The position numbers and the translations under genes were made by a program. Source: Candidatus Rokuibacteriota bacterium (lineage in GTDB: Bacteria; Methylomirabilota; Methylomirabilia; Rokubacteriales; CSP1-6). Taken from it: a stretch of 64,000 nucleotides of DNA. The notes below the pieces were generated by a model. The model was given only the letters and a program-made list of their open reading frames with translations. It was not told where the DNA came from and did not search any database. Where the stretch lies: NCBI GenBank assembly GCA_016188005.1, contig JACPIQ010000068.1:124001-188000 (forward strand), in the 5' to 3' direction. Positions 8,516-49,221 of the stretch are shown in pieces (the stretch's first letter is position 1; each line of letters begins with the position of its first letter).

Positions 8516-9940
8516 ATGAAAACGCTCGTCCTCGACGAAACGCTGGACATCTCGCAGGATCTGCACCGGCTGCTGGCGGCGCGCAGAGCGGATGCCGCCT
8601 TCGTCTGCTCCCCGCACGAGTTCCAGCTGGCCGAGGCAGCGAACGGGCCCGCCCCCCTGCGGATCGTGAACCTCTCCCCGACCCTCGGTGCCTGGGAGCT
8701 CGCTCGGTACCTCAGGGCCGGGGAGGGCCGGCCAACCACGCTCGTGCTCTTCGGCCCGGAGTCCTCCGAGGGTCTCGAGCATCTCTCGAGCCTGCCCGGC
8801 GTGGAGTGCGTCGAGCGTCCCCGCAGCACGGCCGACCTCGGGGCGCTGCTGGACCGAGCGCTGGACAGGGCGCAGGCGGCCGCAGGGGCGGCGCCGACGG
8901 CACCGGTGCCCAAGGCCTTGCCGGCGCCGGGGAGCTTCATGGTCTCGGACATCATCGGCCAGTCGCCCCAGCTCCGCGACGTCTTCGCCAAGATCGAGAA
9001 GGTGGCGGGGGGCAACGCGAACGTGTGTATCGTCGGTGAGAGCGGCACGGGCAAGGAGCTCATCGCCCGGGCCATCCACTACAACAGCCCCCGCCGGGAC
9101 CGGCCGCTGGTCACCCTGGATTGCACGGCCATTCCCGAAGGGCTCATGGAGAGCCACCTCTTCGGCCACGTGCGCGGTTCCTTCACGGGCGCCGTGGAGC
9201 ATCGTGACGGTGTCTTCTCCCTCGCCCACACGGGGACGCTCTTCATCGATGAGATCAGCGAGCTGTCGCTGCCGCTGCAGGCCAAGCTCCTGCGGGTGGT
9301 CCAGAGCCGGGAGTTCGTCAAGGTCGGCGGCACCAAGCCGATCCGGACCGACATCCGTCTCATCACCGCCAGCAACCGGGACCTCGGCCGTGCCGTGGAG
9401 GACGGCAACTTCCGCGAGGACCTCTACTACCGCGTCGCCGTCGTGATGATCCAGAGCCCCGCCCTGCGGGAGCGGCGGGGCGACATTCCGCTCTTGGTGG
9501 AGCACTTCCTGGACAAGTTCAGCGCCGCCCACCGCAAGCCCATCCGGGCCGTGACCCCGCACGCCATGGAGCTGCTGACCAGCTATCAGTGGCCGGGCAA
9601 CGTGCGGCAGCTCGAGAACTGCATCGAGCAGGCCGTGGTACTGTGCGAGGCGGACGTGGTGGACGTGGACGCCCTCTGGCTCGGGGACACGGCGCCCCAG
9701 CGCGGGGAGGCCGACAGCTCGATCCGGATCCGCTCCGGCCTCACGCTCAGGGATGTGGAGCAGCAGTACATCCTGCGCACGCTCCAGGAGACAGGCGGCA
9801 ACCGGACCCGAGCCGCCCGCATCCTCGGTATCAGCCTGCGCTGCCTTCAGTACAAGCTGAAGGCCTACGCCGAGGGCGCCGCCGACCCCTCGGCTCAACC
9901 CAGTCGGGCCAGCGAGCCCGGGCACCTGCTAGGAGTCTAA
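8516..9940 (+). CDS. Sigma-54 activator with degenerate receiver
   Basis: The protein has 474 residues. The N-terminal 130 residues have receiver-like length but lack the acidic pocket and a D-x-x-MPG phospho-site (the region reads LRIVNLSPTLGAWE), so control by phosphorylation is doubtful. The AAA+ domain is intact, with Walker A GESGTGKE, GSFTGA loop, Walker B LFIDEISEL, arginine-finger region FREDLYYR and WPGNVRQLEN. A Fis-type HTH follows (GGNRTRAARILGISLRCLQYKL). It lies 3 bases before the export gene at 9944 and is probably co-transcribed with it. It resembles PEP-CTERM-cluster activators that work without a partner kinase. Confidence 0.88.
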   Translation: MKTLVLDETLDISQDLHRLLAARRADAAFVCSPHEFQLAEAANGPAPLRIVNLSPTLGAWELARYLRAGEGRPTTLVLFGPESSEGLEHLSSLPGVECVERPRSTADLGALLDRALDRAQAAAGAAPTAPVPKALPAPGSFMVSDIIGQSPQLRDVFAKIEKVAGGNANVCIVGESGTGKELIARAIHYNSPRRDRPLVTLDCTAIPEGLMESHLFGHVRGSFTGAVEHRDGVFSLAHTGTLFIDEISELSLPLQAKLLRVVQSREFVKVGGTKPIRTDIRLITASNRDLGRAVEDGNFREDLYYRVAVVMIQSPALRERRGDIPLLVEHFLDKFSAAHRKPIRAVTPHAMELLTSYQWPGNVRQLENCIEQAVVLCEADVVDVDALWLGDTAPQRGEADSSIRIRSGLTLRDVEQQYILRTLQETGGNRTRAARILGISLRCLQYKLKAYAEGAADPSAQPSRASEPGHLLGV

Positions 9941-9943
9941 GCG

Positions 9944-10771
9944 ATGAAGATGCCTCTCTTCCGGCTGCCGTCCCTGCTCGCGCTCTCCCTGCTCCTCCTT
10001 CGGCTCGGGGGGGGCTCCGCACTGGCCGCGGAGGAAGCCTTCGTCATCGGACCCGAGGATGTGCTCGACATCCAGGTCTGGGACAACAAGGATCTCAACC
10101 AGGTCACGTTCGTCCGGCCTGACGGCAAGATCTCCCTGCCGCTGGTGGGGGAGGTCCAGGCTGCCGGCAAGACGGTCCAGAGCCTCACCGCCGATCTCGT
10201 GGCCGCCTACGGCAAGACCGTGAAGGAGCCCGCGGTCACGGTGATCGTGAGGGACATCAAGAGCCGGCCCGTGTACTTCATCGGCGGCTTCGGCAAGGCC
10301 GGTCCCCTCCAGCTCACCCGGGAGCTGAACATGCTCCAGGCGCTGGGTATCGTCGGCGGGGTGGTGGCGGGGGCGGACGCGGAGAAGGGGTTCCTGCTCC
10401 GTGGCGACAAGCGGCTGCCCCTGGATTTCGACAAGCTCCTCAGGAGGGGCGATCTCTCCCAGAACACCAGGCTCGAGCCCGGGGACACGGTTGTCGTCCC
10501 CCTGGCCGACGTGGTCTACATCCAGGGGGAGGTGAGGGCCCCGGGAGTGGTCAAGTACACCAATGACCTGACCATCGTCAAGGCCATCACGCTGACCGGC
10601 GGCCTCACTCAGCTGGCCGCTGCGGGCCGGGTCGATCTGGTGAGAACTGAAGGCGAAAAAAAGGTGCGCATCCGGATCGACCTTGATAAGATGCTCCGGG
10701 CCCCGGAGGAGAATCCCGACATGCGGTTGAGGCCCGACGACATCATCTTTGTGCCCCAGAGACTCTTCTAG
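9944..10771 (+). CDS. Polysaccharide export protein (Wza-like, Poly_export/SLBB)
   Basis: Outer-membrane/periplasmic export channel component of the exopolysaccharide machinery, 275 residues. It has a signal peptide (MKMPLFR, Leu-rich core, cleavage near ALAAEE) with no lipobox cysteine, so it is not obviously a lipoprotein. A Poly_export domain follows (FVIGPEDVLDIQVWDNKDLNQVTFVRPDGKISLPLVGEV, split here by residue variation). Two SLBB-type segments come after it (VYFIGGFGKAGPLQL and VYIQGEVRAPGVVKY). The C terminus RLRPDDIIFVPQRLF is typical. It resembles the XrtA/PEP-CTERM export protein class. Confidence 0.9.
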   Translation: MKMPLFRLPSLLALSLLLLRLGGGSALAAEEAFVIGPEDVLDIQVWDNKDLNQVTFVRPDGKISLPLVGEVQAAGKTVQSLTADLVAAYGKTVKEPAVTVIVRDIKSRPVYFIGGFGKAGPLQLTRELNMLQALGIVGGVVAGADAEKGFLLRGDKRLPLDFDKLLRRGDLSQNTRLEPGDTVVVPLADVVYIQGEVRAPGVVKYTNDLTIVKAITLTGGLTQLAAAGRVDLVRTEGEKKVRIRIDLDKMLRAPEENPDMRLRPDDIIFVPQRLF

Positions 10772-12338
10772 ACAAGGCGCAGGCCCTGGGGGGAAGGGGC
10801 GGTGGTGGTCCCTTCCCTCCAGCCTCCCGTTCTCGGTCGCTTCTCTCCTCCTGATTCTGCTCGCCAGCACTCCCGCATCGCCCCAGGAGTCGTCGACGCC
10901 CGCCGCGCCGTCGTCTCAGCAGGGCCAGGCCCCACCGCCAGCGACGGGCGGAGAGAGGGGCGCCACGACACCGGCCACGGTAACGCCGAGGGAGCCCCCC
11001 TTCGTCCCACCCGTGCCCCCGCCTCCATCTCAGACCCGGGTGCCGGGGCCCTTCCGGGAGCCTTTCCTCGCGGACCGGACCATGAGCTTCGAGCTGCATC
11101 CGAGCTTCGGTTTCACCGAGGAGTACACGGACAACTTCACGCTCGCCTCCCGCGGTAGGACCGACAACTTCCGCTCGTCGCTCAACTCGGGACTGAGCCT
11201 GCTGATCAACCGTCCCAGGACCAAGGGCAGCGTCTCGGGCAGCGTCAGCGTCAGCCACGACAGCGCGACGGGGCAGGAGGACTACCAGATCTTCCCCACG
11301 CTGAACGGCTCGGTCCGCCACACCTTCAATCCCCGGCTCAGCCTCACCGTCACCGACAGCTTCACCAGGACGGACGAGCCCTCGCTGGGGGATCAGGGCG
11401 GGCTCCGGCGCGAGCGCGACGTCTTTACCAGCAACTCCTTCAGCATCGCCGCCGACTGGCTCCTAGACCTCATCGCCACCCAGAGCTACTACCGCAACAC
11501 GATCTTCTTCGGTAATGCCGACACCGTCAGCCACATCCTCGGGGTCAACGCCACGACCCCGCTGGGGGCCCTGATGAGCCTCACCGCGGGGTACGAGTTG
11601 AGCCTGCGCGAGACGTCGGGAGGGACCAGCTCGGTCAGCACGGGGACGACGACGGCCAACGAGAACGTCTCCTCGTCGAGCACGGGCCACCGGGTGCTGG
11701 CCTCGCTCTCCCGGCAAGTGGGGGCGTTCGGCAGCGCCGGGCTTTCGAGCTCCTACTCGATCACCTCCACGGACGACAGCGACAGCCGGCTGTGGAACAT
11801 CTCCCTGTTCACGGCCTACGGCCTCCCCACCGGGCTGTCGCTCTCGGGCAGCCTCGGCTACAGCCTGTTCGACTCGGACCAGGGGGACACGCTGTCGACG
11901 TTCTCCACCAACAGCAGCATCAGCTACCGCTTCGTGAGGACGGTGATCAGCCTCACTGCGTTCCAGGATTTCAGGCAGACGGCAGAGGAAGGGCAGGACT
12001 TCGGGGTCGTGGTCACCCGAACCCTCACGGGCACCATCACCTACCAGCTCACCCCGTTCATCACCACGAACGCGAGGGTCTCCTACAGCCGCAACGAGCC
12101 CACCGGAAGCGGCAACGCCGCCTCGGCCCAGTCAAGCACCGCATTCACGGCGGGCGCCGGGCTGTCGTGGCAGGTCCTCCGCTGGCTCAGCATGACGCTC
12201 GACTACACCCACACCGAGCGCAGCAGCGACAGCTCGAGGGATCTGACCTTCGGCGACGCATCGGGCGGCTCTCAGAGCCAGCCAGCGAGTGACGTCTCGG
12301 AGAACCGGGCCTTTCTCAGTCTGACCGCGTCTTTCTAG
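10749..12338 (+). CDS. Outer-membrane beta-barrel protein of exosortase EPS loci
   Basis: The protein has 529 residues, is rich in Ser, Thr and aromatic residues, and has alternating strands throughout. It has a hydrophobic signal segment (FSVASLLLILLASTPAS), then a Pro/Ser-rich linker, then a long barrel region starting about residue 110 (ELHPSFGFTEEYTDNFTL). The last residues, ENRAFLSLTASF, end in Phe as expected for an outer-membrane protein. Position behind the export gene matches the PEP-CTERM-associated barrel family (TIGR03016-like). The TTG start at 10749 overlaps the previous gene by 23 bases; it is the only start before the signal segment, but no good ribosome site is seen, so the exact start is uncertain. 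Confidence 0.78.
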   Translation: MCPRDSSRQGAGPGGKGRWWSLPSSLPFSVASLLLILLASTPASPQESSTPAAPSSQQGQAPPPATGGERGATTPATVTPREPPFVPPVPPPPSQTRVPGPFREPFLADRTMSFELHPSFGFTEEYTDNFTLASRGRTDNFRSSLNSGLSLLINRPRTKGSVSGSVSVSHDSATGQEDYQIFPTLNGSVRHTFNPRLSLTVTDSFTRTDEPSLGDQGGLRRERDVFTSNSFSIAADWLLDLIATQSYYRNTIFFGNADTVSHILGVNATTPLGALMSLTAGYELSLRETSGGTSSVSTGTTTANENVSSSSTGHRVLASLSRQVGAFGSAGLSSSYSITSTDDSDSRLWNISLFTAYGLPTGLSLSGSLGYSLFDSDQGDTLSTFSTNSSISYRFVRTVISLTAFQDFRQTAEEGQDFGVVVTRTLTGTITYQLTPFITTNARVSYSRNEPTGSGNAASAQSSTAFTAGAGLSWQVLRWLSMTLDYTHTERSSDSSRDLTFGDASGGSQSQPASDVSENRAFLSLTASF

Positions 12339-39644: not shown

Positions 39645-40375
39645 GCAGCTTCGAGCGGCAGTGGCGGGGCCGCTTCGAGCGCTTCGCCACGCGCCACGGG
39701 GAGGAGCACCAGGTGTCGGGCTGGTCGGCCGTGGGGCTCCGGCGCCGCGTCGCCCTCTTCCAGCAGCTCCTCGACGGGGGGCTCTTCCACCCCGGCGCGC
39801 GCCTCCTCGAGCTGGGCTGCGGCGCGGGCACCTACGTGCGCCTCCTGGCCAAGCGCGGCCATCCCGTCGTCGGCCTCGACTACTCGCTGCCGAGCCTCGA
39901 GCGGTCCCTGGCCTCCGATTCCGGTGGGCTCGGCCGCTACGTCGCCGGTGAGGCCTATGCCCTGCCCTTCGCCAGCGGGAGCTTCGAGGGCCTGCTCTGC
40001 ATCGGCGTCCTGCAGGCGCTCACGCGGCCCGAGGAGGCGCTCCGCGAGATGCTGAGGGTGCTCGGGCCTGGCGGGCGGCTGCTGGTGGAGACCCTGAACC
40101 CCTGGAGCCCGCTGGCGCTGACCCGGCGGATGCGCAGCCGGCTCACGGGTGAACCGCTCCGCCTCCATTACGGCGCCCCCCGCGGGATCGAGAGGGCCCT
40201 CGGCGCCACGGGGGCGAGGGCGCTCAGCCGGATCAGCCTGCTCCTGCCGCCCCGGTCGCTTCCGGGCCTGGCCGACCCGCTGGGCACGCCCTGGGTCGCC
40301 GCCGCCGTGAAGGCAGTGCCCGGCATGCGGCACCTGGCGCCCCACGCCTTCTGGATCGTCGGAGAACGGTCGTGA
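39641..40375 (+). CDS. SAM-dependent methyltransferase
   Basis: A class I methyltransferase of 244 residues: LLELGCGAGTYVRLLAKRGHPVVGLDYS (SAM site, motif I), YALPFASGSFEGLLCIGVLQAL (motif II region), REMLRVLGPGGRLLVETLNP (motif III). The C-terminal part is variable and includes ISLLLPPRSLPGLADP. It may methylate a sugar hydroxyl or uronic acid; terminal methylation would fit chain-end recognition by the Wzt-like ATPase. It overlaps the flanking genes by 4 bases on both sides. Confidence 0.87.
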   Translation: MSSFERQWRGRFERFATRHGEEHQVSGWSAVGLRRRVALFQQLLDGGLFHPGARLLELGCGAGTYVRLLAKRGHPVVGLDYSLPSLERSLASDSGGLGRYVAGEAYALPFASGSFEGLLCIGVLQALTRPEEALREMLRVLGPGGRLLVETLNPWSPLALTRRMRSRLTGEPLRLHYGAPRGIERALGATGARALSRISLLLPPRSLPGLADPLGTPWVAAAVKAVPGMRHLAPHAFWIVGERS

Positions 40376-42435
40376 TCGGCTACGTCACGCTCTTCGCCGT
40401 GGCCGCGAGCGCGGCCCTGGGCACCGCGGCGGTGGCCCGGCGGCCCCTGCGCCTGCCCCACATCTCATTCGCGGCCGGCATGCTCGGCTTCACCCTGGAG
40501 GCGGCCGCCGGCTACGGACTCCTCTTCCACTCCGTGAGCGTGTCCGCCCATGCCCGCTGGCTCCTCGCGCTGAGGACGGTGGCGCTCCTGCTTCCGCTCC
40601 CGTGGGCGGTCTTCGCCTTCGTGTCGGCCCGCCGCCCCGACGCAGCCATCCCGCGGGCGTGGCGACTGTCCTTCGTGGCGGGCGGGGCGACCCTGGCGGC
40701 CGTGGCGGCCGCGGGGCTCCACTGGCCGTTCCTGGCCAGCGCCTGGCCGCGCGGCCCCCTGCCTTACGCCCTCCTGACGCCGGCAGGCCAGATCGGCATC
40801 GCCGTCGAGATCCTGGCCACGATCGCGGTGCTGTACGGGCTGGAGCCCTCGATCCGGAACTCGTACGGCTCCGCGCGCTGGCAGCTCAAGTACCTGGCGC
40901 TGGGGCTCGGCGGGATCTTCGTGGTGCGCTTCTACCTCCTGAGCCAGCTGCTCCTTTTCCGCATGCTGACACCGGACAGCCTCGCCATCGGGAGCATGAC
41001 GCTCGCCCTGGGCCTGGGCTTCGTCGCGGTGGGCCTCGCGCGGACCGGCGCGCTGCGGACAGGCCTCGCCGTGTCTCGCCACTTCGTCTACCGTTCCGTC
41101 GTCGTCGGGATCTGCGGCGCGTACCTGATCCTGGCCGGGGCCGGCGGGTGGCTCCTCAACACGCTCGGCATCCCGGACCAGGCGTTCTGGGGCACGCTGG
41201 TCCTCTTCGTCTCCGTCATGGGGCTCGCGGCGCTCCTCTTGTCCGAGAGCCTGCGCTGGCGGCTCAGGCGGTACATCAGCACGCACTTCTACGCCGACAA
41301 GTACGATTACCGACAGCAGTGGCGGAGCTTCACCCAGAGCCTCGCCTCCCGTGTCACCGTCGACGGGATCGCCGGGAGCCTGCTGCGCAGCCTGATGGAC
41401 ACCGTCGGGACCACCCGCGCAGCGCTCTACCTGGCCGAGGAGAGCGGCGGCCCGATGAGGCAGGCAGCGGCCCTCGGCACGGACCGGCTCCCGAAGGAGC
41501 TGTCCTTCCGGCTGGAGGATTTCTCGGACCGGCCCGGCTCCCCCGAGGCCCGCCTCGCCGCCACGCTCGGCGGCGGCCGGCCGGAGGCGCTCCTGCCGGT
41601 CGGCATAGCGGTCGCCGTTCCCCTGCCTTCCCAGGGCCGGCTCCTCGGCGTGATACTGGTCGGGTCCGAGCGCACGGAGGCCTCGTACGGGCAGGAGGAC
41701 CTCGATCTCCTCACCACCGTCGGCGAGCAGGCCGCCAGCGCCATCGCCACCGCGCGCCTCTCGGAGCAGCTCGGCCAGAGCCGCGCCTTCGACGCCTTCA
41801 ACCGGCTCAGCTCGTTCATCGTCCACGACTTGAAGAACTCCATCTCCGCGCTCTCGCTCCTCAACCAGAACGCCCGCGCTCACCTCGATGACCCGGAGTT
41901 CCAGCGCGATGCGCTCGGGACGCTGGAGCGCACGGTCGGGCGCATGCAGAAGCTCCTCGGCCGCCTCGCGAGCCGCCAGGCGGGCGAGCCCCTCGCGATG
42001 GAGGAGATCCAGCTCCCGCCCGTCGCGGAGGAGACAGCGGAGGTCGCGCTGAGCGGCAGCCGCGCCAGGCCGAAGCTCCTGCTGGAGCCCGTTCCGGCCG
42101 TCCGGGCCGACGCCGACGCGATCCAGCGGGTCATCCAGAACCTCATCACCAACGCCGTGGAGGCCATGGACGGCGAGGGAGAGATCACGCTCCGCACCTT
42201 CGCCCGCGACGGGTTCGTCGGCTGCTCCGTGACGGATGCCGGCTGCGGCATGTCGGAGGAGTTCATCCGGAAGTCGCTCTTCGTCCCCTTCCAGAGCACG
42301 AAGAAGGGAGGCTGGGGGATCGGGCTCTACCAGGCCCGGGAGATCCTCGCGGCCCACGGCGGCCGGATCGAGGTGGCCAGCCAGGAAGGCCACGGCACCA
42401 CCGTGACGCTCCTCCTGCCGGAGGCCCGGCCGTGA
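40372..42435 (+). CDS. prsK: Histidine kinase PrsK of the PEP-CTERM system
   Basis: Sensor kinase partnered with PrsR (47773). The 687 residues begin with a 7-8 helix membrane region (about 1-290). A GAF-like domain follows (about 315-465; GTTRAALYLAEESGG to GEQAASAIATARL). The DHp/HATPase core has the phospho-acceptor His in SSFIVHDLKNSISALSLL, N box VIQNLITNAVEAMDG, G1 DAGCGMSEEFI and G2 GGWGIGLYQAREILAAHGG. This layout matches the PEP-CTERM kinase family (TIGR02916-like). The membrane-bound N terminus may read envelope state. The GTG start is coupled to the methyltransferase; the exosortase follows with a 4-base overlap. Confidence 0.92.
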   Translation: MIGYVTLFAVAASAALGTAAVARRPLRLPHISFAAGMLGFTLEAAAGYGLLFHSVSVSAHARWLLALRTVALLLPLPWAVFAFVSARRPDAAIPRAWRLSFVAGGATLAAVAAAGLHWPFLASAWPRGPLPYALLTPAGQIGIAVEILATIAVLYGLEPSIRNSYGSARWQLKYLALGLGGIFVVRFYLLSQLLLFRMLTPDSLAIGSMTLALGLGFVAVGLARTGALRTGLAVSRHFVYRSVVVGICGAYLILAGAGGWLLNTLGIPDQAFWGTLVLFVSVMGLAALLLSESLRWRLRRYISTHFYADKYDYRQQWRSFTQSLASRVTVDGIAGSLLRSLMDTVGTTRAALYLAEESGGPMRQAAALGTDRLPKELSFRLEDFSDRPGSPEARLAATLGGGRPEALLPVGIAVAVPLPSQGRLLGVILVGSERTEASYGQEDLDLLTTVGEQAASAIATARLSEQLGQSRAFDAFNRLSSFIVHDLKNSISALSLLNQNARAHLDDPEFQRDALGTLERTVGRMQKLLGRLASRQAGEPLAMEEIQLPPVAEETAEVALSGSRARPKLLLEPVPAVRADADAIQRVIQNLITNAVEAMDGEGEITLRTFARDGFVGCSVTDAGCGMSEEFIRKSLFVPFQSTKKGGWGIGLYQAREILAAHGGRIEVASQEGHGTTVTLLLPEARP

Positions 42436-43292
42436 GGATGGCCACGCTCCGGCTCGCGGGCGGGAGCCCGTGGCTCTCCCCCGCCATTGCCGTCGCAGGG
42501 GTGGCCGCTCTCTATGCCCCCGTCGTCGCCAGCATGGCCGACGAGTGGGCGAGGTTCCCCAACCTGTCCCATGGCTTCGCGATCCCGCTGATCGCGGCGT
42601 ATCTCGTCTGGGCACGCTGGGACCGCTTGGCCCAGATTCCCGTCGGCTCCTCTCCGCTCGGACTTCCCCTCGCGGTGCTGGGCCTGGCCATGCTGGTCAT
42701 GGGGTCCCTCGTCGGCGAGCCCTTCCTGGCCCGCGTCTCCCTGCCCGTGACCCTCGTGGGCACGTTGCTGTTCCTGGCCGGGGCACCGGCCACCCGGCAG
42801 CTCTGGATCGGGGTGGCCTACCTGGTCTTCATGATCCCCTTGCCCTACGTGACCTTGCGGGACGTCACCTACCAGTCCCGCCTCTTCGACGCTGCCGTGA
42901 CGGCCGAGGCGCTGCGCTGGCTTGGCGTGCCCGTGCTCCGGGAAGGTGTCATGCTCCACCTGGCGAACATGACTCTCGAGGTGGCCGACGAGTGCAGCAG
43001 CATCCCCGCCGTCGCCGCACTGGTCGCACTCGGCGCCGCCTATGCCCAGATCAACCCCCGCCCGACCTGGGTCCGCGTCCTCCTCGTGCTGGCGGCAGCA
43101 CCCCTGGGGCTCGCCTCGAACATCGTGCGTCTGGTCCTCACCTCGCTCGGCGCCTACTACCTCGGCCGGATCGCGCTCGAGAACGTGATCCACAAGTTCA
43201 ACGGGACCAGCGTCTTCCTCCTCACCGTGGTCCTGCTGATCGTGCTCGACGGCGCCCTCATGTCTCTCTGGCGCAGGAGGCGCCGGTCGTGA
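42432..43292 (+). CDS. Exosortase (transpeptidase-like membrane protease), atypical active site
   Basis: Sorts proteins with a PEP-CTERM-type tail: cleaves near the C terminus and attaches the protein to the cell envelope or glycan. The 286 residues have about 8 membrane helices. The catalytic triad is visible: Cys188 in VADECSSIP, Arg233 in SNIVRLVLTSLGAYYLG and His254 in VIHKFNGTSVFLL. The usual ACSG[IL]R motif is ECSSIP here, so the basic residue after the Cys loop is Pro, and the subtype cannot be assigned to XrtA with confidence. EpsI is a separate, coupled gene. No substrate with a PEP-CTERM tail is in the window. Confidence 0.88.
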   Translation: MRMATLRLAGGSPWLSPAIAVAGVAALYAPVVASMADEWARFPNLSHGFAIPLIAAYLVWARWDRLAQIPVGSSPLGLPLAVLGLAMLVMGSLVGEPFLARVSLPVTLVGTLLFLAGAPATRQLWIGVAYLVFMIPLPYVTLRDVTYQSRLFDAAVTAEALRWLGVPVLREGVMLHLANMTLEVADECSSIPAVAALVALGAAYAQINPRPTWVRVLLVLAAAPLGLASNIVRLVLTSLGAYYLGRIALENVIHKFNGTSVFLLTVVLLIVLDGALMSLWRRRRRS

Positions 43293-43948
43293 GGCCGCCG
43301 TGGCGGCTGGGGCTCCTCCTGGGGCTGCTGCTCGTCGCCGGAGCGACGATCGTCCTCATCCCCGGGGTGCGCGAGCAGCGCGACCATGCCCTGCTGGCCC
43401 TGGCGCCGAGCCCGGCGGGCTGGACCTCGCTCGAAGGCGCGCCGGAGTGGGCCCTCCCCGTGGATCCCAATGGGCGGTCAGCACTGCGACGGACCTATCA
43501 GCGCGGCCCGGACACCCTGTGGGTGTCGGTGGCGGTGTTCAGCCGGCAGCAGGAGCCCGAGCGCCGGGCCGCGATCAACCTGATCTACCCGGAGCGGAAC
43601 ACCGTCCGGATCGATCGGCTGCCCTTCACCCTGTCCCTCAACGGCTCGCCGGATCCCCCACTCGAGCTTCCCGCCATGGTCATCCAGCGGGACCAGGAGC
43701 GACGGCTGCTGGTGGTCTACTGGCACCAGATGGGCCGCCGGGCGTACGGCAGCGAGTACGCGCACCGGCTGGCGCTCACGCGGGACATCCTGTTCGCCCG
43801 GCGGGCCGACTCGGTGCTGGTCCGGATCGCCACCCCCCTGCCGCCGGAAGGGACCCTTGACCAGCGCCTTGGCCCCCTGCGGGAGATCGCTCCGGCCCTC
43901 TATGCGGCGGTGCGCCTGGCCGGATCGGCGAGCGACCAGCAGCGGTGA
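43289..43948 (+). CDS. epsI: EpsI family protein (exosortase-associated, DUF3485)
   Basis: The 219 residues have an N-terminal membrane anchor (WRLGLLLGLLLVAGATIVLIP), then a periplasmic domain. The domain shows GWTSLEGAPEWALPVDPNG, DTLWVSVAVFSRQQEPERRA, LVVYWHQMGRRAYGSEYAHRLALTRD (in parts) and DSVLVRIATPL. The YW-Q-xGR-xY pattern is that of EpsI/DUF3485 proteins, which accompany or are fused to exosortases. The biochemical role is unknown; in some organisms it is needed for EPS production. The GTG overlaps the exosortase stop by 4 bases. Confidence 0.85.
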   Translation: MRPPWRLGLLLGLLLVAGATIVLIPGVREQRDHALLALAPSPAGWTSLEGAPEWALPVDPNGRSALRRTYQRGPDTLWVSVAVFSRQQEPERRAAINLIYPERNTVRIDRLPFTLSLNGSPDPPLELPAMVIQRDQERRLLVVYWHQMGRRAYGSEYAHRLALTRDILFARRADSVLVRIATPLPPEGTLDQRLGPLREIAPALYAAVRLAGSASDQQR

Positions 43949-43964
43949 GGCACACGGCCTGAGC

Positions 43965-45146
43965 ATGCCCGGTCTCGACCACGACACACGGCGCTCCCCT
44001 CTGGCGCTGGCGGCCGGCGCAACCGGCCGGAGGCCCAGGATCGCCCAGGTCATCCCCTCCCTCCGGGTGGGGGGGCTCGAGAAGGTGGTGCTCCGCCTGG
44101 TCGAGTCGCTCGGGGATCCGATCGAGCACCTCGTCGTCACCCCCTCGGGCGACGGTCCCCTCCGCGAGGACTTCCCGCGAGGGGTACGGGTGGTGGCGAT
44201 GTCGGAGCACCATCCATCGGACAGGTGGAATGCCCTGCGGATGGCGCGCCTCTTCCGCGCCTTCAGGCCCGACATCGTCCACACGCGCAACTGGACCTGC
44301 ATCGATGCCGTCATCGGCGCCCGGCTCGCCCGCGTGCCCGTGGTCGTCCATGGCGAGCATGGCCGCGACGCCGCCGATCCCCACGGGCGCAATCCCCTCC
44401 GCCGCCGGGTGCGCCGGTGGCTGGCACCGCTGGTCACCGAGTTCGTCACCGTCTCGCGCGATCTCGCCCGCTGGCTCATCGAGGAGGTGGGCGTCCCCGC
44501 GCGCAAGGTGACGCATCTCTGCAACGGCGTGGACACGAAGCGCTTCCTCCCCGGGGACCGCGACGTCGCCCGCAGGGCGCTCGGAGTTCCCGACGGCCTG
44601 CCCGTCGTCGGCACTGTCGGTCGGCTGGATCCGGTGAAGGATCACGCCGGGCTGATCCGGGTCTTCACCCAGGAGCTGGGGCGGCGGGCCGCGATCCTCG
44701 TCATCGCCGGAGATGGCCCGGCCCGCCCGCAACTCGCGGAGCTCGTGCGCACATGCGGCGCCGGCGGCCGAATCCGCCTGCTTGGCGAGCGCGACGACAT
44801 CCCGCTGGTGCTTCGCGCCCTGGACCTCTTCGTCCTCCCGTCGGTGGGCGAGGGCATCTCCAACGCGATCCTCGAGGCGATGGCCACCGGCCTGCCCGTG
44901 GTGGCGACGCGGGTAGGGGGCAACCCCGAGCTGGTCGCCGATGGCCGGACCGGCTGGCTCGTCGAGCCGGGATCGACGGCGGCCCTGGCAGAGGCCATGA
45001 GCGGGTACCTCGACGACCCCGCGCTGGCGAGGCGGCACGGCCGGGCCGCCCGCGAGAGGGTGGAACGGGAGTTCAGCCTCGAGCGGATGCTGGCCGGCTA
45101 CGCGGACCTCTACCGGCGCTGCCTCGCGCGGGTGAGAATCCGATGA
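43965..45146 (+). CDS. GT4 glycosyltransferase of exosortase loci
   Basis: The 393 residues have a GT-B fold. After a 25-residue leader the domain starts IAQVIPSLRVGGLEKVVLRLVESL. Then come VHTRNWTCIDAVIGARLARVPVVVHGEHGRD (in parts), VTHLCNGVDTKRFLP, GTVGRLDPVKDHAGLIRVF and LDLFVLPSVGEGISNAILEAMATGLPVVAT, with the EX7E-type donor site. This matches the exosortase-associated family TIGR03088. The start is ATG 43965; the extra leader before IAQV makes a later start conceivable, but none is obvious. The stop overlaps the next glycosyltransferase. Confidence 0.87.
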   Translation: MPGLDHDTRRSPLALAAGATGRRPRIAQVIPSLRVGGLEKVVLRLVESLGDPIEHLVVTPSGDGPLREDFPRGVRVVAMSEHHPSDRWNALRMARLFRAFRPDIVHTRNWTCIDAVIGARLARVPVVVHGEHGRDAADPHGRNPLRRRVRRWLAPLVTEFVTVSRDLARWLIEEVGVPARKVTHLCNGVDTKRFLPGDRDVARRALGVPDGLPVVGTVGRLDPVKDHAGLIRVFTQELGRRAAILVIAGDGPARPQLAELVRTCGAGGRIRLLGERDDIPLVLRALDLFVLPSVGEGISNAILEAMATGLPVVATRVGGNPELVADGRTGWLVEPGSTAALAEAMSGYLDDPALARRHGRAARERVEREFSLERMLAGYADLYRRCLARVRIR

Positions 45147-46333
45147 GCCCGCGCCGGATCCTCCACGTGCTGGACCATTCGCTGCCCATCGGCAGCGGCT
45201 ACAGCTACCGGAGCCGGAGCATCGTCATGTTCCAGCGACGGCTCGGGCTGGAGCCCCTGATCCTCACCTCCCCCAAGCAGGGGACGGCCGCGGACTGCTG
45301 CGACACGATCGAGGGGATCCGCCACCACAGAACGGGGCAGCCCGGCGGCCGCATGCCGTTCCTCCGTGAGCTCCTGCTCATGCGCCGCCTGGCGGGACGG
45401 ATCGGGCAGGTCGCCCGCGCGGAGCGGGTTGACCTGCTCCACGCCCACTCGCCGGTCCTCAACGGGCTTCCCGCCATCTGGGCGGGGAGGCGGCTGGGCC
45501 TCCCGGTGGTCTACGAGGTTCGCACCTTCTGGGAAGATGCGGCAGTGAACCACGGCACGTACGCGGAAGGCTCGCTCCGCTACCGGATGACGCGGGTGCT
45601 CGAGACCCTGGCGGTGAAGCAGGCGGACCGGGTCGTCGCCATCTGCGAAGGCATCCGAGGCGAGCTCCTCCGCCGGGGAGTGCCCCGGGACCGGGTCACG
45701 GTGGTGCCGAACGGGGTCGACGCCGACTGGTTCGAACCCCGGGAGCGAGCCACCGCCCTGGCGGCCCGCCTGGGGCTCGGGGAGGGCCCGGTGTTCGGCT
45801 ACGTGGGGTCCTTCAGCCGCTACGAGAATCTCCCGTTCCTCGCCCGCGCGGCGCCCGATTTCCTGCGCCGGCTCCCGGGCGGACGCCTTCTCCTGGTGGG
45901 GGGCGGGCGCGACGAGACCGCCCTCCGGGAGGCGGCCCTCGAGGCCGGGCCGGGCGTCATCCTCACCGGGCGCATCCCGCACGATCAGGTCCGGGGCATC
46001 TACACCCTGCTGGACGTCCTCGTCCTGCCGCGCCGGCGCATCCGGCTCACCGAGCTGGTGACGCCGCTGAAACCGCTGGAAGCCATGGCCATGGGGAAGC
46101 CGGTGCTGGCCAGCGACATCGGCGGCCACGCCGAGCTCATCCGGGACGGCGAGACCGGCGTCCTCTTCCGCGCCGAGGACCGCGAGTCCCTGGTCACCGA
46201 GGCGGTGCGTCTGGGCGAGCACCCGATGCTGCGCCAGCGGCTAGGCGAGACGGGCCGCCGCTTCGTCGAGGCCGAGCGGACGTGGGATCGGGTCGTGGCA
46301 GGCTACCTCGACGTGTACGGGAGCGCCGCCTGA
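45143..46333 (+). CDS. GT4 glycosyltransferase of exosortase loci
   Basis: The 396 residues have a GT-B fold. They open with RILHVLDHSLPIGSGYSYRSRSIV, a start typical of exosortase family TIGR04063. TSPKQG, LLHAHSPVLNGLPAIWAGR, VYEVRTFWEDAAVNHGTYAEGSLRYR (in parts), VVPNGVDADWFEPRE, FGYVGSFSRYENLPFL and TPLKPLEAMAMGKPVLASDIGGHAELI (in parts) follow. With the preceding gene it forms the usual pair downstream of the exosortase. Linkage specificity is not predictable. Confidence 0.9.
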   Translation: MSPRRILHVLDHSLPIGSGYSYRSRSIVMFQRRLGLEPLILTSPKQGTAADCCDTIEGIRHHRTGQPGGRMPFLRELLLMRRLAGRIGQVARAERVDLLHAHSPVLNGLPAIWAGRRLGLPVVYEVRTFWEDAAVNHGTYAEGSLRYRMTRVLETLAVKQADRVVAICEGIRGELLRRGVPRDRVTVVPNGVDADWFEPRERATALAARLGLGEGPVFGYVGSFSRYENLPFLARAAPDFLRRLPGGRLLLVGGGRDETALREAALEAGPGVILTGRIPHDQVRGIYTLLDVLVLPRRRIRLTELVTPLKPLEAMAMGKPVLASDIGGHAELIRDGETGVLFRAEDRESLVTEAVRLGEHPMLRQRLGETGRRFVEAERTWDRVVAGYLDVYGSAA

Positions 46334-46376
46334 TGCGTGTGCTCGTCGGATCCGGCGGCGCGCGGCGAGGCGCGCG

Positions 46377-47783
46377 ATGAACCCCTGGCTGGTCGGTCAC
46401 GTCCTCTTCCCGCTCCACGAGCGGCTCAAGCGGAAGCCGACGTTCCGCTGGCTCCCGGAGCTCGAGCGCACCCAGTGGCTCGCGCCCGACCGACTGCGCG
46501 AGTTCCAGTTCCGCCGTCAGCGCCAGCTGCTCGAGTGGGCGTACGCGCATGTGCCGTACTACCGCGGCGTGATGGACGAGCACGGGCTGCCTCCCCACCG
46601 GATCGCCTCCCCGGAGGACTTCCACCGGCTGCCCTTCCTCACGCGCGACCTGATCCGCGGCCGCTTCGAGGAGCTCCGGGCGCGCGCCAGGCTGCCCCAC
46701 GTGCATCGCCGCTCCTCGGGCGGATCCACGGGCTCGCCCGTCACCATCGAGGTGGACATGGGCCGCATGGGCATCGCCGAGGCGGCCCGCCTGCGGTCCC
46801 ACCGCTGGTTCGGCGTGGAGCCCGGCGCGCGGGAGGTGCTGGTCTGGGGCTCGCCGCTGGAGATCACGCGCCAGGACCGCGTCCGTGACCTCCGGGACTG
46901 GCTCCTCAACTCGAGGATCCTGCCGGCCTTCGACATGGGCGAGGACCGGCTGCCCGCCTCCGCCGCGGCACTGCTCGCCTACCGTCCGGCCAGGATCTAC
47001 GGCTACGCCAATGCGGTGTATCTCCTGGCCCGGTACTTCCTGCGTGAGGGACTTCCACGTCCCGAGGGCCTCCGCGTCGTGTTCACGACCGCCGAGCCGC
47101 TCTTCCCCTACCAGCGCGAGGCCATCGCCGCGGGCTTCGGCTGTCCCGTGGCCGAGGAGTACGGCTGCCGCGACGGAGGCCTCGTGGCGCTGGGCTGCCC
47201 GGAGGGAGGCCTGCACGTGTTCGCCGAGGGAAGCTACGTCGAGATCCTCGACCCGGACGCGGATGGCCGCGGGGAGATCGTCCTCACGTGCCTCGACTCA
47301 CTGGCCTTCCCGACCATCCGCTACCGGACCGGCGACTTCGGAGCCTTCGACCCCACGCCGTGCCGCTGCGGCCGGAGCCTGCCGAAGATCCACCCCGTCG
47401 AGGGGCGGCTGCTCGACTTCCTCGTCACGCCCGGCGGGCGCCTCCTGCACCCCACCTCGGCCATGCACATCCTGCGCGAGATCCCGTGGGTGCGCGACTC
47501 CCGCGTCGTCCAGGATGCCATCGATCACGTGAGTGTCCAGCTCGTGGCTGCGGCTCCCCCGGACTCCGCGGCGAAGGCGGGCCTGCTGTCCAAGTTCCGG
47601 ATGCTCCTCGGCGCTGACATCCGCGTCGACATCGTGGAGCTCCCGGCCCTGCCGCCCACGGCGTCTGGCAAGTTCCGCCCCGTGGAGTCGCGGGTAGGCC
47701 GCGACACCCTCGAGACGATGATGGCCGCATCACGCCGGCGGCCGCGACCGGCGACACCGGAGGCCCTCAGGCATGGACCGTGA
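46377..47783 (+). CDS. CapK/PaaK-like adenylate-forming ligase
   Basis: ANL-superfamily enzyme of 468 residues. It shows RRSSGGSTGSPVTIEVD (phosphate-binding loop), VFTTAEPLFPYQREAIAAGF, EYGCRDGG, FPTIRYRTGDFG (adenylate and hinge Asp), CRCGRSLPKIHPVEGRLLDF, and a C-terminal LPALPPTASGKFRPVESRV with the catalytic Lys. CapK-type proteins in capsule and EPS loci activate carboxylic acids for transfer to CoA or a carrier protein. The ACP, FkbH-like and AAC(3) genes downstream make a carrier-bound acyl group a good guess. It overlaps the prsR start by 11 bases. Confidence 0.87.
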   Translation: MNPWLVGHVLFPLHERLKRKPTFRWLPELERTQWLAPDRLREFQFRRQRQLLEWAYAHVPYYRGVMDEHGLPPHRIASPEDFHRLPFLTRDLIRGRFEELRARARLPHVHRRSSGGSTGSPVTIEVDMGRMGIAEAARLRSHRWFGVEPGAREVLVWGSPLEITRQDRVRDLRDWLLNSRILPAFDMGEDRLPASAAALLAYRPARIYGYANAVYLLARYFLREGLPRPEGLRVVFTTAEPLFPYQREAIAAGFGCPVAEEYGCRDGGLVALGCPEGGLHVFAEGSYVEILDPDADGRGEIVLTCLDSLAFPTIRYRTGDFGAFDPTPCRCGRSLPKIHPVEGRLLDFLVTPGGRLLHPTSAMHILREIPWVRDSRVVQDAIDHVSVQLVAAAPPDSAAKAGLLSKFRMLLGADIRVDIVELPALPPTASGKFRPVESRVGRDTLETMMAASRRRPRPATPEALRHGP

Positions 47784-49221
47784 ACGGCTGCTGAACGTCG
47801 AGGACGACGAGGACATCCGGACCCAGCTCAAGTACGCGCTCCAGGAGCAGTACCAGGTGACCCTCGCGGAGAACAGAAGGGAGGCTCTCGCGGCGGTGCG
47901 CGAGCTCCAGCCCTCTGTCGTGACGCTGGATCTCGGCCTGCCGCCGGAGCCGGACTCGGCCGGGGAGGGGCTCAAGGCGCTCGAGGAGATCCTCGACGTC
48001 GCCCCCGGGATCAAGGTCGTCGTCATCACGGGTAACAGCGACCGCGCCAACGCGCTCAAGGCCGTGGACCTCGGCGCCTTCGACTTCCACCTCAAGCCCG
48101 TGAACCTGGACGACCTGCGCGTGGTCCTCGGCCGGGCCACCTATCTGCGCCAGCTCGAGCGCGAGAGCGAGCAGCGGACGCGCCAGGAGGAGCGGGCGGT
48201 CAGCTTCCGCGACATCCTGGGCACGACGCAGAAGATGCGCGAGATCTTCAACGTCATCAGCCGCGTGGCCAAGACCGACGCCACCGTCCTCATCGAAGGA
48301 GAGAGCGGGACGGGCAAGGAGCTGATCGCCCGCGCCATCCACACCAGCAGCCCGCGCCGGAACGCGCCCTTCGTGGCCATCAACTGCGGGGCCATCCCCG
48401 AGACGCTCCTCGAGAGCGAGCTGTTCGGCCACGAGAAGGGCTCCTTCACGGGCCCCTTCGTGGCCATCAACTGCGGGGCCATCCCCGAGACGCTCCTCGA
48501 GAGCGAGCTGTTCGGCCACGAGAAGGGCTCCTTCACGGGCGCTCACGTCCAGCGCAAGGGCAAGATCGAGGTCGCCTCGGGCGGGACGCTGTTCCTCGAC
48601 GAGATCGGCGAGATGAGCGTGCCGCTGCAGGTCAAGCTCCTGCGCTTCCTCCAGGAGCGGGAGATCGAGCGGGTGGGCGGCCGCGAGCCGATCCGGATCG
48701 ACGTGCGCGTGCTGGCCGCCACCAACAGCCACCTCGAGCAGGGCATCCAGAAGGGGACGTTCCGGGAAGACCTCTTCTACCGCCTGTCGGTCGTCGCCAT
48801 CCGGGTGCCCCCGCTCCGGGAGCGGGGGGAGGACATCGTCCTCCTGGCCAACGTCTTCCTGCGCCGGGCCGGACAGACCATGAAGCGCAAGACGCGGTTC
48901 AGCGCGGCGGCCCTCGAGGCCCTCGTGCGCTATCCGTGGCCGGGGAATATCCGGGAGCTGGAGAACAAGGTGCAGCGCGCCGTCATCATGACCACGGGCC
49001 GCACCATCGAGCCGGCCGATCTGGAGCTCTCCGCCGCCGCCGACGCGCCCCTGCCGACGCTCCGCGAGGCCCGCTCGGGGCACGAGCGAAAGCTCGTGAT
49101 CGACGCCCTGGCGCGGAGCGGGGGCAACATCAGCCGCGCGGCGCAGTCCGTCGGGGTGAGCCGCCCCACGTTCCACGAGATGCTGGCCCGGCACGGTATC
49201 GACGCCAAGGCGTTTCGCTGA
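47773..49221 (+). CDS. prsR: Sigma-54 response regulator PrsR with duplicated GAFTGA region
   Basis: Partner of PrsK. The receiver (about 1-125) has VEDDEDI, the phospho-acceptor Asp in VVTLDLGLPP and Lys in FHLKPVN. The AAA+ domain has Walker A GESGTGKE, Walker B LFLDEIGEM, FREDLFYRL and WPGNIRELEN, then a Fis-type HTH (GGNISRAAQSVGVSRPTFHEML). Residues 199-227 and 228-256 are an exact tandem copy of a 29-residue stretch containing ELFGHEKGSFTG, the loop that touches sigma-54. The first copy ends GSFTGP and the second GSFTGA. Without the copy the length would be 453, the normal size. It is 87 bases (in frame), so the product is full length but may not activate transcription normally. Confidence 0.92.
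   Translation: MDRERLLNVEDDEDIRTQLKYALQEQYQVTLAENRREALAAVRELQPSVVTLDLGLPPEPDSAGEGLKALEEILDVAPGIKVVVITGNSDRANALKAVDLGAFDFHLKPVNLDDLRVVLGRATYLRQLERESEQRTRQEERAVSFRDILGTTQKMREIFNVISRVAKTDATVLIEGESGTGKELIARAIHTSSPRRNAPFVAINCGAIPETLLESELFGHEKGSFTGPFVAINCGAIPETLLESELFGHEKGSFTGAHVQRKGKIEVASGGTLFLDEIGEMSVPLQVKLLRFLQEREIERVGGREPIRIDVRVLAATNSHLEQGIQKGTFREDLFYRLSVVAIRVPPLRERGEDIVLLANVFLRRAGQTMKRKTRFSAAALEALVRYPWPGNIRELENKVQRAVIMTTGRTIEPADLELSAAADAPLPTLREARSGHERKLVIDALARSGGNISRAAQSVGVSRPTFHEMLARHGIDAKAFR
48367..48540 (+). repeat. Perfect 87-bp tandem duplication inside prsR
   Basis: Bases 48367-48453 and 48454-48540 are identical. The unit encodes 29 residues from PFVAINCG to GSFTG. The lack of any synonymous difference indicates a very recent event or an assembly artefact. 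Confidence 0.95.

Follow-up and report, generated by a model that had tools for sequence, protein, structure and literature searches.

A bacterial genome assigned to Candidatus Rokuibacteriota encodes a PrsR-type sigma-54 activator whose AAA+ ATPase core is interrupted by an exact tandem repeat of 87 bp. This raises the question of whether the second copy exists in living cells and, if so, whether it damages the regulator, is tolerated by it or acts as a switch. To address this, the 64-kb stretch of DNA around the gene (hereafter, the window), the remainder of the genome and related genomes were analyzed.

An exact in-frame duplication in the AAA+ core of PrsR

The gene and the elements of its central domain are located as follows:

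47773-49221, + strand: prsR, response regulator and sigma-54 activator, 482 amino acids including 29 duplicated residues
48298-48321, + strand: Walker A motif of the AAA+ domain (GESGTGKE, residues 176-183), upstream of the duplication and intact; invariant in an alignment of 14 PrsR sequences
48367-48453, + strand: copy 1 (residues 199-227), beta2-alpha2 and the start of loop L1, ending in GSFTG and followed by P
48454-48540, + strand: copy 2 (residues 228-256), followed by A, which gives the whole GSFTGA; placed by its 100% match and the orthologue alignment

The product scores 644 bits against the PrsR family profile TIGR02915 (curated cut-off, 502.6), the match being split in two by the duplication. 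It contains the expected receiver (PF00072), Sigma54_activat (PF00158), AAA lid (PF25601) and Fis-type helix-turn-helix (HTH_8, PF02954) domains, which confirms the sequence-only reading of the gene as PrsR. A profile search of the genome retrieved no second gene above the cut-off, the next best scoring 446 bits.

Tandem Repeats Finder reports a single array in the window, at 48367-48540, with a period of 87, 2.0 copies, 100% matches and a score of 348. The unit starts on a codon boundary and keeps the reading frame, adding the 29 residues PFVAINCGAIPETLLESELFGHEKGSFTG a second time, so that the perfect in-frame duplication claimed earlier is borne out. Identity between the copies stops exactly at both edges, and the endpoints have no base in common (no microhomology). 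Among 300 codon shuffles of prsR, the longest exact self-match at offsets of 20 to 300 averaged 10.8 nt and never exceeded 18 nt, compared to the 87 nt observed, which excludes a chance origin. Apart from the duplication, prsR carries no other lesion. Without the 29 residues, the product measures 453 amino acids, next to 454-455 in its closest orthologue (L063), in agreement with the earlier claim of a normal length.

The duplicated segment, which lies between the Walker A and Walker B motifs (both intact), comprises beta2, alpha2 and the start of L1. The sequence-only reading placed the repeat over a GAFTGA loop. It does cover the loop that contacts sigma-54, but the motif here is GSFTGA and its last alanine lies outside the repeat, which ends one residue earlier. 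As a result, the signature is complete in copy 2 alone, copy 1 giving GSFTG-P.

Distribution among orthologues and other activators

When 95 genomes of the phylum were searched with the TIGR02915 profile, 17 of them yielded a total of 19 PrsR genes above the cut-off. In the alignment, all 19 orthologues carry the segment as a single copy without an insertion, showing that the insertion breaks a strictly conserved segment. The nearest of them is 67-72% identical to the PrsR studied here. Protein searches of the family and the phylum at a strict E value found no orthologue with the duplicated query, probably because the duplication splits the alignment.

The junction between the copies was sought more widely with a loop-to-beta2 pattern in 84,980 species, a set that may omit the window's own species. 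This pattern, which reads GC-rich codons only and is blind to other codons and to common 'VNC' variants, matched 28 loci, none of them another activator with this junction. Recurrence in other bEBPs was thus rejected: in 25 of the 28, it was the stretch preceding beta2 in a single-copy bEBP that matched, and the remaining three loci are not bEBPs. A looser pattern, run on 94 genomes of the phylum, retrieved the junction from no genome but this one, and its 11 other matches have single-copy spacing. Searches for another allele in the bin, for orthologues within the genus and for copies on plasmids were all negative. As far as these comparisons extend, the duplication appears private to this lineage, and the lack of differences between the copies indicates that it is either young or homogenized.

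The PEP-CTERM system of the genome

Two further genes of the locus were identified by profile:

40372-42435, + strand: prsK, cognate histidine kinase (TIGR02916, 421.5 bits; cut-off, 300)
42432-43292, + strand: exosortase gene of the prsR locus (TIGR02602, 159.8 bits; cut-off, 105.55)

Many XrtA/PEP-CTERM exopolysaccharide genes are found in the same locus, and the genome contains one RpoN and 25 PEP-CTERM tails above the cut-off. PrsK, an exosortase and PEP-CTERM proteins, the company expected of a PrsR family member, thus all occur in this genome. PEP-CTERM genes are predicted to be activated by PrsR (PMC1569441), and in Aquincola one such gene was shown to depend on RpoN (PMC9850573). Good sigma-54-like sites are enriched in the 1.5 kb upstream of 15 of the PEP-CTERM tails, being present in 10 of 15 regions compared to 19% of random segments (p ~8e-5), or in 5 of 15 compared to 7% at a stricter score (p ~0.003); these p-values are approximate, as the score threshold was picked after seeing the scores. 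Together with RpoN and the 25 tails, this excess indicates that the system is otherwise present; it thus appears complete, with the duplicated gene as its sole PrsR. A strong sigma-54 site within the window was rejected, since its one match contains one mismatch and chance gives such a match in 23 of 100 shuffles.

In comparison to the PrsR of the described XrtA/PEP-CTERM systems (TIGR02915; Haft et al. 2006, PMC1569441), the domain order and conserved AAA+ motifs are common to both, and both loci hold PrsK, exosortase and exopolysaccharide genes. The protein studied here differs by the 29 extra residues in its AAA+ core, and its gene is not adjacent to that of PrsK, in contrast to the tandem arrangement of 12 of 13 genomes (PMC1569441). 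In the window, prsK and prsR (40372-49221) are separated by the exosortase gene, glycosyltransferase genes and an AMP-ligase-like gene. Just 3' of prsR, an ORF at 49244-50473 matches short-chain dehydrogenases from residue 164 onward only. Its first 160 residues presumably resemble a MaoC-type dehydratase, as read from the sequence, and the ORF may be a fusion.

Predicted consequence for sigma-54 activation

In PspF, the GAFTGA loop L1 stands above the hexamer and its phenylalanine contacts the N-terminal peptide of sigma-54; mutation of this residue results in defective activators (PMC9770992). To assess the effect of the second copy, structures were predicted by AlphaFold. The two-copy PrsR, modeled with 14 sequences, reached a mean pLDDT of 72.4, with values of about 30-60 in the duplicated region; residues 201-230 and 249-269 stayed below 50, and the L1 hairpin was missing. 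For the single-copy closest orthologue, modeled with 13 of the same sequences, the mean was 80.5, and the beta2, alpha2 and L1 strands scored 70-89. This drop favors an impaired AAA+ core, although the model is biased by an alignment gap assigned to copy 1, and insertions are a kind of change that AlphaFold judges badly. In Foldseek, the best matches are still NtrC-type activators.

The reading that we hold to be somewhat probable is that of a recent, revertible and probably damaging spontaneous duplication in the sole PrsR gene, which weakens or abolishes sigma-54 activation. Mechanistically, the duplication would add a second beta2-alpha2-L1 segment of 29 residues to the ATPase core, which could then fold in two registers. 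With copy 1 in the core, the 29 residues would be inserted at the tip of the sigma-54-contacting L1, while with copy 2 in the core, GSFTGA would be whole and copy 1 would be pushed out between alpha1 and beta2. With the ring and its L1 loops impaired, PrsR would have little or no ability to activate the PEP-CTERM genes that depend on sigma-54. The earlier proposal of a disabled or altered regulator therefore stands as the best reading, which the structure predictions support weakly. Two points argue against a loss of function. Copy 2 keeps the whole GSFTGA and could take the normal place, and the frame is kept in an otherwise intact gene, yet one-third of duplications are in frame by chance.

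Exact adjacent copies, once formed, can be lost by slippage or recombination, and since the copies in prsR are both exact and adjacent, either process could restore a one-copy gene. What the data show is the sequence and frame of the array, its lack in the relatives compared and the occurrence of the other parts of the system in this genome; that the duplication is real in cells, reduces or eliminates function and is able to revert is inferred. If real, it provides a clean lesion of natural origin within the ATPase core of a regulator thought to control PEP-CTERM protein expression. A comparison of the one- and two-copy forms would then test both whether PrsR drives sigma-54 promoters and how far a bEBP tolerates insertions in its L1 region. 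As an intragenic tandem duplication, the event is ordinary in kind, and no new mechanism is indicated.

Alternative explanations

An assembly error had been considered from the outset, and the assembly itself makes it less likely than first thought. Exact overlaps between contig ends concentrate at lengths of 139-141 bp (17 of 35 matches), implying a de Bruijn k of about 141 for an assembler deduced from these lengths. At such a k, a two-copy 87-bp array is unambiguous, as its path needs sequence across the copy junction, and an untrimmed contig join would leave about 141 bp instead of 87, making a join error unlikely on these indirect grounds; an overlap-join artefact with k=87 was rejected as the main explanation. 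In addition, the duplication lies inside a 193-kb contig, approximately 20 kb from its end. A scan for exact tandem arrays with a period of at least 24, covering 2.50 of the 5.37 Mb of the genome, found 16, and the other 15 have varied periods, none of which is 87. A second copy could still have been introduced into the sequence of a one-copy cell by a chimeric library molecule or by an error of assembly or gap filling, an explanation that we consider unlikely. It would account for the occurrence of the duplication in no other genome searched and for its endpoints without microhomology, in a draft of 140 contigs that is 98.1% complete and 4.7% contaminated. Moreover, if 150-base reads were used, no single read could span the 174-bp array, and the start of one contig (C3) repeats 87 bases exactly further inside the same contig.

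If the duplication is real, it might also be tolerated: copy 2 would occupy the usual core position, copy 1 would loop out between alpha1 and beta2, and PrsR would still work, perhaps with altered assembly or activity. The full conserved segment with GSFTGA is restored by copy 2, the ORF is otherwise intact with the rest of the system present, and even the poor AlphaFold model puts the strand and helix of copy 2 (residues 239-247) at core positions, leaving copy 1 at a pLDDT of about 30. T4 lysozyme accepts engineered insertions within secondary structures (work cited in PMC2924343). There, as may be the case in PrsR, an added segment can allow the chain to fold in two ways. Confidence falls for copy 2 and the L1 region as well, however, relative to the single-copy relative, and none of the 19 orthologues has an insertion at this position, so that tolerance is a possible but doubtful outcome. 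The lysozyme insertions, from the Matthews group, were reportedly designed and their structures solved, while the PrsR insertion is natural and known from its sequence and a predicted model. It is highly improbable that the duplicated beta2-alpha2-L1 segment, through two folding registers or a copy-number on/off state, tunes the exopolysaccharide/PEP-CTERM regulon.

An evolved phase-variable switch, in which slippage between one-copy (ON) and two-copy (OFF) prsR would generate mixed exopolysaccharide/PEP-CTERM states, is similarly very improbable. The array is an exact adjacent repeat within a gene, as a phase-variable locus would have, but it is neither recurrent nor copy-number-variable among relatives (19 orthologues, 94 phylum genomes): one genome carries it, in two copies, and no copy-number variants were seen in the phylum genomes compared. 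The duplication edges also lack the endpoint homology that would seed repeat formation, so simple slippage between short repeats fails to explain the origin, and nothing at the endpoints would seed the duplication again. As single-stranded DNA, the 87-nt unit folds well (z -3.1) and, at -22.1 kcal/mol, more stably than the corresponding segment in any of the 19 orthologues (mean, -15.8; lowest, -19.6 kcal/mol). Yet another activator of the same genome has a still more stable matching segment (-23.1 kcal/mol) without being duplicated, which makes this a weak comparison, and secondary structure as the cause of the duplication was set aside as a lead at most.

Precedents for such a switch exist. 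In pneumococcus, phase variation arises from reversible sequence duplications inside capsule genes (Waite et al. 2001, 2003, cited in PMC4243769). Like the repeat in prsR, those in cap3A, cap8E and tts are spontaneous, exact tandem duplications within single ORFs of polysaccharide-related loci, where they should impair the gene and be able to revert. They concern synthesis genes in which reversion and phenotype were observed, in contrast to the in-frame duplication in a regulator known here from one sequence. In Mycobacterium tuberculosis, tandem-repeat copy-number variation is treated as phase-variable and is easily missed with short reads (PMC12817950). Its tandem duplications are of similar size, such as 57 bp at the dop promoter, but most of them lie in promoters and occur in several different copy numbers across strains and subpopulations, unlike the one coding duplication in one genome described here. 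The phase-variation-like switch proposed in the sequence-only reading finds no support apart from the general revertibility of exact tandem repeats, the duplication being a single case in the phylum.

Other repeats in the genome

Of the 15 other tandem arrays, ten were tested against Pfam without yielding a clear example within an enzyme or regulator domain that scores well: two precede the start of the domain, six fall in ORFs without a Pfam match and two have weak or marginal matches. Several of the arrays have a common intergenic repeat motif. A dispersed, apparently intergenic repeat family with a period of approximately 63-66 bases and the common core GCGAAGAGGCC..AACCGCA occurs in tandem at many genome sites, including L053 (16055), L055 (6339 and 15738), L107 (2571), L159 (9162), L135 (10054) and L171 (2152). 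On another contig (L110, G000:C75:100001-120000), positions ~588-2350 contain many repeats of about 37 bases (CTTTCAGTCCCCTCCTCATCGGGGAACGACGTGCGAC) at a spacing of about 75 bases, resembling a CRISPR array. Finally, a segment with several clustered PEP-CTERM genes (L182, G000:C63:1-20000) carries, at 9053-11100, two near-identical PEP-CTERM tails (VPEPTTLLLWGTSLLGIAGLRRW) that lie 1914 bases apart.
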